Assembly (NCBI GenBank): GCA_029907465.1
Contig: JARYLV010000016.1
Location: 1 to 40,173 of the forward strand
Direction: 5' to 3'
Source of the DNA: Methanomassiliicoccales archaeon
GTDB lineage: Archaea; Thermoplasmatota; Thermoplasmata; Methanomassiliicoccales; JACIVX01
Length of the DNA stretch: 40,173 bases
Every line of letters starts with the position of its first letter. The stretch's first letter is position 1. Of the stretch, positions 7,834 to 13,384 are shown piece by piece. A program made the position numbers and the translations under genes. Under the pieces are notes generated by a model. The model saw only the letters and a list, made by a program, of their open reading frames with translations. It was not told where the DNA came from and did not search any database.

Positions 7834-8343
7834 CTACTCGATCCTGATCTCTTTACCTCTCTCCTTTACTTTTGCCCTCTTCAGTAGAATCTCCAAGACA
7901 CCGTTTTTGTAGGTCGCCTTCGCGCTATCGGGGTCGACTTCGCACGGGAGTTCGATGCGCTTCTCGAATCGTCTGTCAGGGTTGTCTACCTCGATGTCGA
8001 GGGAGTCCTCCGTTGCATTCAGTTTGATATCCTCCTTCTCGACACCTGGGAGTTCGACGATAATCCTGACTTTGTCCGCTTCCTCGATAATGTCTGTTAG
8101 CGGCTCTCTCTTTACGACCTCTTCTCTCTTGCGTATCGTGTTACCGAATTCCTGTATCCTCGGTTTCCCGTCGGGGCCGATTCTCATGGAGAATCCATAG
8201 ATCATCGGCTCCCTTTCCAATGGTACATCCCCGCTCATCAGTCTCTCCATAATCCTCTCGATCCTCCGGCGCATCTCTTCGAATTCTTCATCAAAACCGC
8301 CGAAGAAGTCGTCCCAGTCCCTCCTCCTCTTATCCTTTACCAT
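7834..8343 (-). CDS. hsp20: Small heat shock protein Hsp20, second copy, last gene of the heat-shock operon
   Basis: The 169-residue protein is an alpha-crystallin-type ATP-independent holdase that keeps unfolding proteins soluble. Residues 1-45 are charged (KDKRRRDWDDFFGGFDEEF), followed by a linker with YGFSMRIGPDGKP. The alpha-crystallin domain from about 85 shows VRIIVELPGVEKEDIKLNA, the RRFEKRIELPCEVD strand, YKNGVLEI and the end KERGKEIRIE. ATG at 8343 is preceded by GAGGTGATCGCA, a good ribosome-binding site whose bases overlap the stop of cdc48 at 8349-8351, so the two genes are translationally coupled. It differs clearly from the other Hsp20 at 10572-11057, mainly by the YGFSMRIGPDG linker, so it is not a recent duplicate. 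Confidence 0.93.
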   Translation of the reverse strand: MVKDKRRRDWDDFFGGFDEEFEEMRRRIERIMERLMSGDVPLEREPMIYGFSMRIGPDGKPRIQEFGNTIRKREEVVKREPLTDIIEEADKVRIIVELPGVEKEDIKLNATEDSLDIEVDNPDRRFEKRIELPCEVDPDSAKATYKNGVLEILLKRAKVKERGKEIRIE

Positions 8344-8348
8344 TGCGA

Positions 8349-10547
<2,199 letters not shown>

Positions 10548-10571: not shown

Positions 10572-11057
10572 TTATTTAACCTCCACCTTCTTTCTTTTCT
10601 CCTCGACTTTTCTGAGCTTGGGAAGGGTGATCTCCAGGACCCCGTCCTCCATTCGCGCCTCGATCTTGTCCTGGTCTATGTCATCATAGATTGGAATTCT
10701 TCTGTAAAATGAAAGTCGGCCTCTCTCCCTCCGGACATAACCGATGCCCTTTTCCTCTTTTTCTTCCTCTTTCTTCGCGCGGATCTCTAGCATGTTGTCA
10801 ACGATTTCGATTTCGACATCATCCTTTTTGATCCCTGGCATTTCTGCCTGAACGATGTACTTGTCACCGGTGTCCTTGATGTCGATCACTGGAACGCGTT
10901 CGAATCCGCCACCGAGCGCCCTGAAGGACGGGAACCAGGACTCGCCCCATCCCATTCTCAGATTGTCAAGCATCCTTTCCATTTCGTCTAACAGACTAAG
11001 TGGTCCCCAGTAAGATCGTGGAACGATACCCTCTCGCTCGCGGTCTTCCTTTCTCAT
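10572..11057 (-). CDS. hsp20: Small heat shock protein Hsp20, first copy, upstream of cdc48
   Basis: The 161-residue protein has an N-terminal arm (YWGPLSLLDEMERMLDNL, then a WGESWFPSF segment) and an alpha-crystallin domain from about 60 (VPVIDIKDTGDKYIVQAEMP, GIKKDDVEIEI, RRERGRLSFYRRIPIY, MEDGVLEITLP), with a lysine-rich tail. The GVLEI strand that packs into the dimer is intact. ATG at 11057 is preceded by GGAGGTGAT, an almost perfect ribosome-binding site. The longer frame to 11135 would include the inverted-repeat operator and is rejected. A TTTATATA box at 11137-11144, inside the end of the coiled-coil gene, gives it its own promoter, with two operator-like sites between that promoter and the start codon. 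Cdc48 follows 39 bp downstream. Confidence 0.94.
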   Translation of the reverse strand: MRKEDREREGIVPRSYWGPLSLLDEMERMLDNLRMGWGESWFPSFRALGGGFERVPVIDIKDTGDKYIVQAEMPGIKKDDVEIEIVDNMLEIRAKKEEEKEEKGIGYVRRERGRLSFYRRIPIYDDIDQDKIEARMEDGVLEITLPKLRKVEEKRKKVEVK

Positions 11058-11085
11058 ACGATCACCTCCATTATTGTAATGGTAA

Positions 11086-11112
11086 CAACCACAGGTTATC
11101 AACCTGTGGTTA
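11086..11112. promoter_or_regulatory. Two tandem HSR1-like operator sites within a perfect inverted repeat, hsp20 promoter
   Basis: On the minus strand the region reads TAAC-CACAG-GTTG and, 14 bp on, TAAC-CTGTG-GTTG. Both match the core TAAC-N5-GTTA of the operator I recall for the Archaeoglobus heat-shock regulator HSR1, except for the last base. The two sites also create a perfect inverted repeat at 11087-11111 with 11-bp arms and a 3-base spacer. They lie just after the expected start of transcription from the TATA box at 11137-11144 and 29 bp before the hsp20 start codon. A bound repressor would block transcription; as RNA, the repeat would fold into a hairpin in the leader. Confidence 0.7.
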
Positions 11113-11136
11113 CATAATGTAATTAAAAAGAACATC

Positions 11137-11144
11137 TATATAAA
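11137..11144 (-). promoter_or_regulatory. TATA box of the internal hsp20-cdc48 promoter
   Basis: TTTATATA on the minus strand, the consensus archaeal TATA sequence. It overlaps the approach to the end of the coiled-coil gene, whose stop codon is at 11145-11147. Transcription is expected to begin near 11114, giving a leader of about 57 nt that contains the inverted repeat and the GGAGGTGAT ribosome-binding site. Confidence 0.7.
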
Positions 11145-11474
11145 CTATTCGGTCAATAACTTCTTCAGCTCGTCCTCGATGTGTTCAATTTGTTTTCTCA
11201 CAGCCCGCTCCACTGCCCGCAGGTTCTCCACGACCTGGGGGGTCTCTTGCTTAACCTCATCGATGATCTTCTTTGCTGTCCTTTTCACGCTTTCCTCCGC
11301 TTCCTTACTCTCTTTTGCCAGCTCTTTCAATACTTTCTCGCTTGTTCTCTCGATTGTTTCAATCGTTTTTATGATGCTTTCATTCGTCTCTTTAGCGAGC
11401 TTTTTAAGCTCCTCCTCGTACTGGTCCATGAGGGCCTTCAACCTGACTTTATCCCACACCTCAACCCCCTCCAT
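11145..11474 (-). CDS. Coiled-coil protein of unknown function in the heat-shock operon, 109 residues
   Basis: The protein is almost entirely charged helix. From residue 15 to the end it consists of K/E/I/L heptads (for example LKKLAKETNESIIKTIETIE) with no proline except one near residue 78, no cysteine and no membrane span. It should form a long coiled coil or helical bundle. ATG at 11474 overlaps the 3' end of the upstream regulator gene by 14 bp in another frame, so it is translationally coupled to the regulator, and the hsp20 promoter lies at its end. I recognise no family; it looks superficially like apolipoprotein- or prefoldin-type helices. Its position suggests a chaperone-related or regulator-partner role, which is inference only. 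Confidence 0.82.
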   Translation of the reverse strand: MEGVEVWDKVRLKALMDQYEEELKKLAKETNESIIKTIETIERTSEKVLKELAKESKEAEESVKRTAKKIIDEVKQETPQVVENLRAVERAVRKQIEHIEDELKKLLTE

Positions 11475-12105
11475 TTATCGTGCTCAATATCTCTCCGACA
11501 ACTTCATCCCGCAGTCCCAACGCTTTCGCGATCTGGGCCGCCGTTAGCGTAGGGTGCTTGACCGACTCATAGATCACGCGTCTCGCTTCGTAATCCGCGA
11601 TATGCGATTCAATGAGCTCTCTTGTCTCGCTCAGTAGTTTCTCCTTTTTCTCTATGAGAGCGTGTCTGCGGTTCTGGAGTTCCTCAAGTTCTTTGTCGAT
11701 CGCCTCGATCTGTTTTCTCACTTCAGAGTACCTCTGACAAAAGAGATCGAAATCGATACGCTCCTTTTCCTGTAATTTCAACTCAGTTTCAGATTCGATG
11801 TGGAAGTTCTCACGCGATAGAACCTCGACGTTGAACAAGCCTGGTCCCACATCGACGAGAATGGTGAACCCTCTTACCGGGACGTAGACCTTCCTTGCTG
11901 GTCCGCCTCGGTCGCTCTCCATCAGGAAGCTTCGCACTAGATTGTTTTCTTCGAGTACTTTGAGATGTTTCATGATGGCCTGTTGGCTCATTCGCAGTTC
12001 TCGCGAGAGCTGTAACGGGTAATGCGGCTCCCTGACAAGTGCTTCAAGGATCCTTCTGCGGGTGGGATTTTCGATGATAGAGAGAACGGTGTCTAAGTCA
12101 GTCAT
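11461..12105 (-). CDS. ArsR-type HTH regulator, HSR1-like heat-shock repressor candidate
   Basis: The 214-residue protein opens with a winged helix-turn-helix (SIIENPTRRRILEALVREPH, LSRELRMSQQAIMKHLKVLE) whose wing contains SDRGGPARKVYVPVRG. A linker follows, then a coiled coil around 125-165 (IEAIDKELEELQNRRHALIE) and a second HTH-like end (PTLTAAQIAKALGLRDEVVGEIL). The order regulator, Hsp20, Cdc48 matches the A. fulgidus HSR1 (AF1298) operon as I recall it, so the likely role is heat-relieved repression of this operon and of its own gene. ATG at 12105 is chosen because the longer frame to 12141 runs through the operator and into the expected transcription start. TATA box at 12147-12155, operator at 12122-12134. 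Confidence 0.85.
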   Translation of the reverse strand: MTDLDTVLSIIENPTRRRILEALVREPHYPLQLSRELRMSQQAIMKHLKVLEENNLVRSFLMESDRGGPARKVYVPVRGFTILVDVGPGLFNVEVLSRENFHIESETELKLQEKERIDFDLFCQRYSEVRKQIEAIDKELEELQNRRHALIEKKEKLLSETRELIESHIADYEARRVIYESVKHPTLTAAQIAKALGLRDEVVGEILSTINGGG

Positions 12106-12121
12106 ATTAACCACTTCTAGG

Positions 12122-12134
12122 TAACATTTGGTTA
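12122..12134. promoter_or_regulatory. HSR1-like operator at the regulator promoter
   Basis: TAAC-ATTTG-GTTA is a perfect match to the symmetric core TAAC-N5-GTTA. It lies between the TATA box (12147-12155) and the regulator start codon at 12105, covering the expected start of transcription near 12124. This is the place for autorepression. The same core, with one changed base, occurs twice at the hsp20 promoter 1 kb away. Confidence 0.72.
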
Positions 12135-12146
12135 ACAACATATGGT

Positions 12147-12155
12147 ATATATAAT
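12147..12155 (-). promoter_or_regulatory. TATA box of the heat-shock regulator gene
   Basis: TTATATATA on the minus strand, flanked by AAA and CC. Its centre is about 45 bp from the ATG at 12105, so the mRNA should have a leader of about 20 nt containing a weak GAAGTGG ribosome-binding site. The HSR1-like operator follows directly. Confidence 0.65.
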
Positions 12156-12325: not shown

Positions 12326-13384
12326 ATGCCCGGGGTTATCGTCAAAGATTCAGTAATCATTGAAGACGCGGCCGAAGGGAGTCAGATTTACAATAAAGGA
12401 TTCTATGGATATCCCCGCTCAGGTGGCGGTCTAGAACTTGACCTCCTCGAGGCGTGCTACCTCGTTGAAACGGGACGTCTAGTCGTCTACGAGGGGCCGT
12501 CGACGATTAGTTTCTCTAATATCATGAGGCGTGCTGCATGCGTGTGTGAAGATTTCGAAATTGATTATTTGGTCTACCGCGATTTGAGGCAGAGGGGTTA
12601 TATTGTTAAGCGTGGCACAAGCGATTTCGATTTCCGAGTATTTCCAAGGGGAGGAACACCCGCGAGTTCCGCGACAAAATTTTGGGTTTCTGCGATCACC
12701 GAAAGATCACTCTTCGATATTGGAAAATTCCTTCACGATGTTGAAAGATCTGAAAAAACGAGAAAGGAACTTCTCGTTGCGGTTGTGGATGAGGAAGGAG
12801 ATATCACATATTATAAGGCCTCCTCCGTTATTCCAAAAGGTCGATTCTCGTCGGAAATAAAGGAAATGGAAATGGTCGAAGCGGTGCTTTTCGAGGATCG
12901 AGCCCTGGTCTTTGAAGAGGGAGCAGTTCAGCAACTTTACGATCGAGAATTTTATGGAAAAAGAATCGGCAATGCGCTACAACTATCGATGATCGAGACA
13001 GCCTTTTTGCTCGAGGAAAAAAGAATTGTTCTCAAGAGTGCAAAGTCAAGTAGAAAGATCAGTTTGAACGGGCTCAGGAGGCGCGCCAAGAAGATCCAGA
13101 CGGACTTCGATCTGAGGTTTAGGGTATACAGCGATTTGAGAAGAAGGGGGCTCATCGTCAAGACTGGGTTCAAGTATGGATCGCATTTCAGAGTTTACGA
13201 CGCTGACCCAGACAAGCACCACTCGAAATACCTTGTTCATGCCGTGCCAACGGAATACCGCGTGACATGGCCGGAGATCTCGAGAGCCGTAAGGCTTGCT
13301 CACGGTGTGAAGAAGGAGATTCTTTTTGGCAGGATATCTGATGGCAAAGTCGATTATCTAAAATTAAAAAGAGTGCGGCCGTGA
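12326..13384 (+). CDS. endA: tRNA-splicing endonuclease EndA, long fused form
   Basis: The enzyme cuts archaeal pre-tRNA introns at the bulge-helix-bulge motif. At 352 residues it is the double-length type made of two fused repeats, which acts as a homodimer. Each half has the EndA N-terminal pattern (LLEACYLVETGRLVVYEG; MIETAFLLEEKRIVL) and a YRDLRQRGYIVKRG / YSDLRRRGLIVKTG core. Only the C-terminal half keeps the catalytic triad: Tyr in FKYGSHFRVYD, His in HSKYLVHAV and Lys in AHGVKKEILFG. The N-terminal half has FRVFPRGG instead and is structural. ATG at 12326 is about 28 bp from a TATA-like ACTATAAT at 12294-12301, which suggests a leaderless mRNA. The stop directly abuts the stop of the convergent gene at 13385. 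Confidence 0.94.
   Translation: MPGVIVKDSVIIEDAAEGSQIYNKGFYGYPRSGGGLELDLLEACYLVETGRLVVYEGPSTISFSNIMRRAACVCEDFEIDYLVYRDLRQRGYIVKRGTSDFDFRVFPRGGTPASSATKFWVSAITERSLFDIGKFLHDVERSEKTRKELLVAVVDEEGDITYYKASSVIPKGRFSSEIKEMEMVEAVLFEDRALVFEEGAVQQLYDREFYGKRIGNALQLSMIETAFLLEEKRIVLKSAKSSRKISLNGLRRRAKKIQTDFDLRFRVYSDLRRRGLIVKTGFKYGSHFRVYDADPDKHHSKYLVHAVPTEYRVTWPEISRAVRLAHGVKKEILFGRISDGKVDYLKLKRVRP

Follow-up and report, generated by a model that had tools for sequence, protein, structure and literature searches.

The window, a stretch of 40,173 nucleotides, comes from a genome of 1.72 Mb; among named organisms, its closest relatives are the Methanomassiliicoccales, a relation that bears out the Thermoplasmata lineage of the original prediction. 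The gene order it had given was also confirmed, with a regulator, a coiled-coil protein, Hsp20, Cdc48, and another Hsp20 all encoded on the minus strand. The Phr/HSR1-type regulator has 214 amino acids (11461 to 12105; Pfam HTH_20, 3e-16; PDB 2p4w, Phr, 5.6e-16), and its stop overlaps by 14 bases the open reading frame of a conserved 109-residue amphipathic helical-hairpin (coiled-coil) protein (11145 to 11474), recognized from syntenic homologs and a structure model. The first hsp20 (10572 to 11057; PF00011, 6e-23) has its own predicted promoter and the Shine-Dalgarno sequence GGAGGTGATC (11060 to 11069, minus strand). The remaining genes encode a Cdc48 AAA ATPase (8349 to 10532; TIGR01243, 1129.6 bits, above cut-off) and a second Hsp20 that overlaps the cdc48 stop (7834 to 8352; archaeal Hsp20 model NF041800, 182 bits, above cut-off). 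Synteny of the regulator with hsp20 and cdc48 is kept in 60 relatives. A tRNA splicing endonuclease gene (endA, 12326 to 13384) diverges from the regulator; endA adjoins the regulator in most genomes examined, and the operator described below sits in their common intergenic region.

The regulator is a Phr-like ArsR winged-helix protein, and the nearest characterized protein by both sequence and fold is Phr. Its build consists of an N-terminal ArsR winged helix, beta strands, a long coiled coil, and a C-terminal three-helix domain. Pfam assigns it to HTH_20/HTH_5, a profile search against PDB returned Phr (2p4w) at 1.9e-23, and Phr was also the top fold match of the AlphaFold2 model (pLDDT, 86.5). 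The helix-turn-helix is conserved in an alignment of 30 regulator sequences. SurR (2quf/2qlz) was the second-best structure, matched over residues 9 to 208, and was outscored by Phr in every comparison run (profile, NCBIfam, and fold). The NCBIfam scores for both Phr and SurR fall far under the curated cut-offs, with the Phr model NF053602 reaching 65.2 bits against a cut-off of 320. Traits of the HSR1/Phr heat-shock regulators (arCOG01684) found here are a winged helix and coiled coil homologous to Phr, linkage to hsp20 and cdc48, and an AAC-N5-GTT site at the regulator's own promoter.

The helical protein between the regulator and the chaperones has syntenic homologs in families f1, f3, f4, and f6. 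Its structure model consists of two long amphipathic helices, profile matches were weak and apolipoprotein-like, and a fold search with the model gave no significant match. It may be a stress protein that binds membranes or aggregates.

Operator sites and their conservation

The core motif TAAC-N5-GTTA was predicted once before the regulator and, with one altered base, twice in tandem before hsp20. Both predictions hold: TAACATTTGGTTA lies at 12122 to 12134, and the minus-strand sequences TAAC-CACAG-GTTG and TAAC-CTGTG-GTTG fill 11086 to 11112. Core-aligned promoters of relatives (61 regulator homologs and 22 genes at the hsp20 position, of which 21 are hsp20 and one is cdc48) extended this core to a 23-bp palindrome, GTWnnYAAC-N5-GTTRnnWAS, in which the half-sites GTT, AAC, GTT, and AAC stand at offsets −6, 0, 8, and 14. 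The regulator operator, GTTGTTAACCAAATGTTACCTAG (12117 to 12139, minus strand; core AAC-N5-GTT at 12123 to 12133), has no mismatch to this consensus. The two hsp20 operator copies, also on the minus strand, have one mismatch each and overlap, 14 bp apart, with the upstream copy at 11095 to 11117 (core, 11101 to 11111) and the downstream copy at 11081 to 11103 (core, 11087 to 11097). In a scan of the window with an 80-row matrix from relatives, to which the window itself contributed its regulator and hsp20 sites, the regulator site scored 20.8 bits, the downstream hsp20 copy 20.9, the upstream copy 16.8, and the next-best position 7.7. The perfect tandem form occurs once in the window's genome, at this hsp20, and this doubling suggests that the chaperone unit is controlled more tightly.

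Both operators lie close to predicted promoters. A predicted, consensus-matching TATA box precedes the regulator (12148 to 12155, minus strand), with 23 bp between its center and that of the operator, and the usual spacing of about 26 bp would place the transcription start inside the site, as originally predicted. The predicted TATA box of hsp20, TTTATATA (11137 to 11144, minus strand), directly follows the stop codon of the coiled-coil gene. Its center is 34 bp from that of the upstream operator copy and 48 bp from that of the downstream copy, so with a start placed by the same 26-bp spacing, the operator pair should fall among the earliest bases of the transcript, at the start itself or shortly after it.

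The motif is not absent from orthologous operons of relatives. Within 100 bp upstream of the regulator, AAC-N5-GTT is present in 58 of 61 order-level homologs (dinucleotide shuffles: mean, 2.7; maximum, 8), and within 100 bp upstream of hsp20 it is present in 21 of 21 (mean, 0.75; maximum, 3), counts that are not independent, as the genomes are related. Elsewhere in the phylum, 40 loci from 16 further families were examined, and in 33 of them the core lies no more than 100 bp from the regulator. Among spacings of 0 to 15, a spacer of 5 is dominant and others are far rarer, with a lesser peak at 13 in the regulator set (20/61). The regulator sites come from 22 genera and differ widely from one another between the conserved letters. 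As controls, the core stands in the 100 bp upstream of 10 of 838 other long open reading frames of these loci and of none of 46 second-hsp20 genes. Low-complexity promoters can yield TAAC and GTTA words, but these counts refute chance AT-rich matches near TATA boxes as the source of the sites, an explanation to which we give practically no credence.

Proposed control and related systems

The best reading of the locus, in which we have high confidence, is a heat-shock operon that regulates itself in the manner of Phr and HSR1; binding, repression, and the heat signal are what we infer from the sequence. The winged-helix regulator would bind as a dimer to the 23-bp site that covers, or immediately follows, the point where transcription of its own gene begins. 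It would also occupy the two overlapping sites at the transcription start of an additional promoter inside the operon, from which hsp20, cdc48, and the second hsp20 would be expressed. While the temperature is normal, the repressor on its sites would block RNA polymerase; heat would weaken binding or lower the repressor level, and both units would then be transcribed. In archaea, a regulator site that covers the transcription start or lies shortly after it is usually a sign of repression. Phr is reported to keep polymerase off the TBP/TFB complex (PMC9133787). Heat is the presumed signal because of the genes present and the precedent of Phr and HSR1, both of which reportedly repress their own genes as well as heat-shock genes (PMC9133787).

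Site details for Archaeoglobus fulgidus and Pyrococcus furiosus were taken from later papers. The A. fulgidus HSR1 (AF1298) operon likewise has a regulator with a downstream hsp20 and is linked to cdc48, and the autoregulatory site of HSR1, CTAAC-N5-GTTAG (PMC9133787, PMC5852551), has the same core and spacing as the operator described here; this likeness is one of operon layout and site. Compared with the HSR1 operon, the present locus additionally contains a gene for a helical protein and another hsp20; it also has two operator copies and a hairpin at a promoter inside the operon, and its operator extends the published site to 23 bp. Phr of P. furiosus (PDB 2p4w), to which the regulator is closest in sequence and fold, acts on hsp20 and the Cdc48 homolog VAT1 as a repressor, from separate sites before each gene (PMC10746257). 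However, its consensus is given as TTTA, TGGTAA, and AAAA over 29 bp (PMC9133787) rather than AAC-N5-GTT palindromes, and the regulator studied here scores under the NCBIfam cut-off for Phr.

A regulator of the SurR kind, sensing redox or sulfur instead of heat and controlling protein quality genes, would also explain the site. The long SurR motif, GTTn3AACn5GTT (PMC12162507), equals the left three half-sites of the operator, is present in the operator logo, and is common to the HSR1 core, so this arrangement of half-sites is not confined to heat-shock regulators. SurR (PF0095; PDB 2qlz/2quf) also matches the regulator over most of its length as the second-best structure, and the C-terminal three-helix domain recalls the C-terminal domain of SurR. 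Against this, the CxxC redox switch of SurR was found in none of 61 regulator homologs (first 120 residues), where cysteines are scarce (0.18 per protein in the first 110 residues). The targets are Hsp20, Cdc48, and thermosome genes rather than the hydrogenase and other hydrogen and sulfur genes of SurR, and Phr remains the higher-scoring match throughout. We consider a SurR-like sensor improbable, and a heat-shock repressor of the Phr/HSR1 kind remains the preferred reading. DNA recognition looks common across the Phr/HSR1/SurR-type family, with a sensor part that would differ among its members.

An inverted repeat within the hsp20 operator

The hsp20 operator contains a perfect 11-bp inverted repeat with a 3-nt loop (11087 to 11097 and 11101 to 11111, minus strand; predicted fold, −14.9 kcal/mol), which is predicted to give the hsp20 mRNA a 5′-terminal hairpin (11087 to 11111). 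At the hsp20 site, the five bases of the spacer can pair with the five that lie to the left of the GTW half-site. The arms differ among three congeners, reading CACAG/CTGTG, CTCGA/TCGAG, and CCGTG/TGCGG (the last with two G-U pairs), and each hairpin folds at −13 to −15 kcal/mol, versus −3 to −6.5 kcal/mol for chimeras that combine arms of different species. Across 21 hsp20 sequences, 34 doubly changed cells were counted, versus 12.7 ± 3.0 in shuffles (0/500 as high), slid versions of the arm pairing gave at most 22, and permutation of arms between genera matched the observed complementarity in 5 of 5,000 trials. Regulator sites had no extra arm complementarity (0.30, versus a null of 0.34) and no hairpin. 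The repeat could possibly act as a 5′ stem-loop or a DNA cruciform, or be a by-product of template switching.

We tentatively propose that the hsp20 operator is a dual code, in which AAC and GTT would be read by the repressor and the spacers would be selected to pair as a 5′ mRNA stem-loop (or DNA cruciform). If true, this would provide a second control layer or protection of the mRNA under heat. The complementarity could instead be a mutational by-product without function, left by template switching that corrects a near-palindrome, an explanation that concerns the hairpin only and leaves the operator unaffected. Such correction of near-palindromes is known from bacteria, the operator already supplies a near-palindrome, and genera g13, g6, g18, and g23 lack a good hairpin (weak folds only). 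The regulator sites are near-palindromic as well, however, and their lack of extra complementarity speaks against this origin, which we regard as somewhat unlikely. The inverted repeat could also be mainly an mRNA element with the AAC and GTT letters secondary, as arms that change between species yet stay complementary, and the loss of stability in chimeras, would allow. This is very doubtful, since all 21 hsp20 sites have the AAC and GTT core and the same site occurs without a hairpin at the regulator; together these observations indicate that the operator is real and the hairpin merely added to it. A simple RNA thermometer was rejected: predicted pairing of the Shine-Dalgarno sequence differs among congeners (0.81, 0.37, and 0.32 at 37°C), and the hsp20 hairpin is still paired in the model at 70°C. 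An Rfam search with the hsp20 leader hairpin returned no RNA thermometer or leader match up to an E value of 1.

Archaeal heat-shock regulation has been characterized in few lineages. The kind of system described here is already known; what is added is a precise predicted 23-bp operator for the whole phylum, its identity with the SurR grammar, and a covarying hairpin within the hsp20 operator, which is a new feature. The second of these ties the DNA recognition of HSR1 to that of SurR and suggests that both use one half-site grammar, with a sensor part that changed.

Breadth of the regulon

In the window's genome, a pattern search allowing up to 2 mismatches to the 23-bp consensus found no strong site beyond the three at this locus, and candidate solo sites elsewhere scored at most about 10 bits. 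The regulon of this genome is narrow, because its thermosome and GrpE loci are also without an operator site. The switch had been called self-contained, which holds for the window's genome but not for some relatives, in which second cdc48 copies and some thermosome genes are preceded by a site. For example, unlike in the window's genome, thermosome genes of family f2 (genus g9) carry the operator (L134 at 3135, L137 at 1307, and L223 at 1501). Exact 23-bp matches in 41 genomes lie nearly all before chaperone genes or the regulator, with two places that look like chance.

The site also accompanies chaperone genes through rearrangements. In family f8, with hsp20 ahead of the regulator, a site of 25 to 27 bits lies before hsp20; in family f25, where cdc48 heads the operon, one of 17.9 bits lies before cdc48; and in genome G010, cdc48 is inverted yet retains its own site. 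Family f6 has a near-perfect palindrome before a small open reading frame and cdc48 in 14 of 14 loci examined. In this family (L059 to L074), a conserved protein of 48 to 55 amino acids (..PDKERSPVPKRRWKPL..) replaces hsp20 before cdc48, and its reading frame begins 25 to 40 nt after the operator, in L064 about 380 nt after the regulator gene. The start of this small protein resembles the N-terminal arm of the Hsp20 of neighbors (..REGIVPRSYWGPL..), and it may be an Hsp20 remnant without the alpha-crystallin domain.

In six genomes of genus g10 (L294 to L299), tandem AAC-N5-GTT pairs at about position 1500 precede a conserved gene with a zinc-protease-like motif, HEYIHTVGY, which is a possible extra member of the heat-shock regulon.
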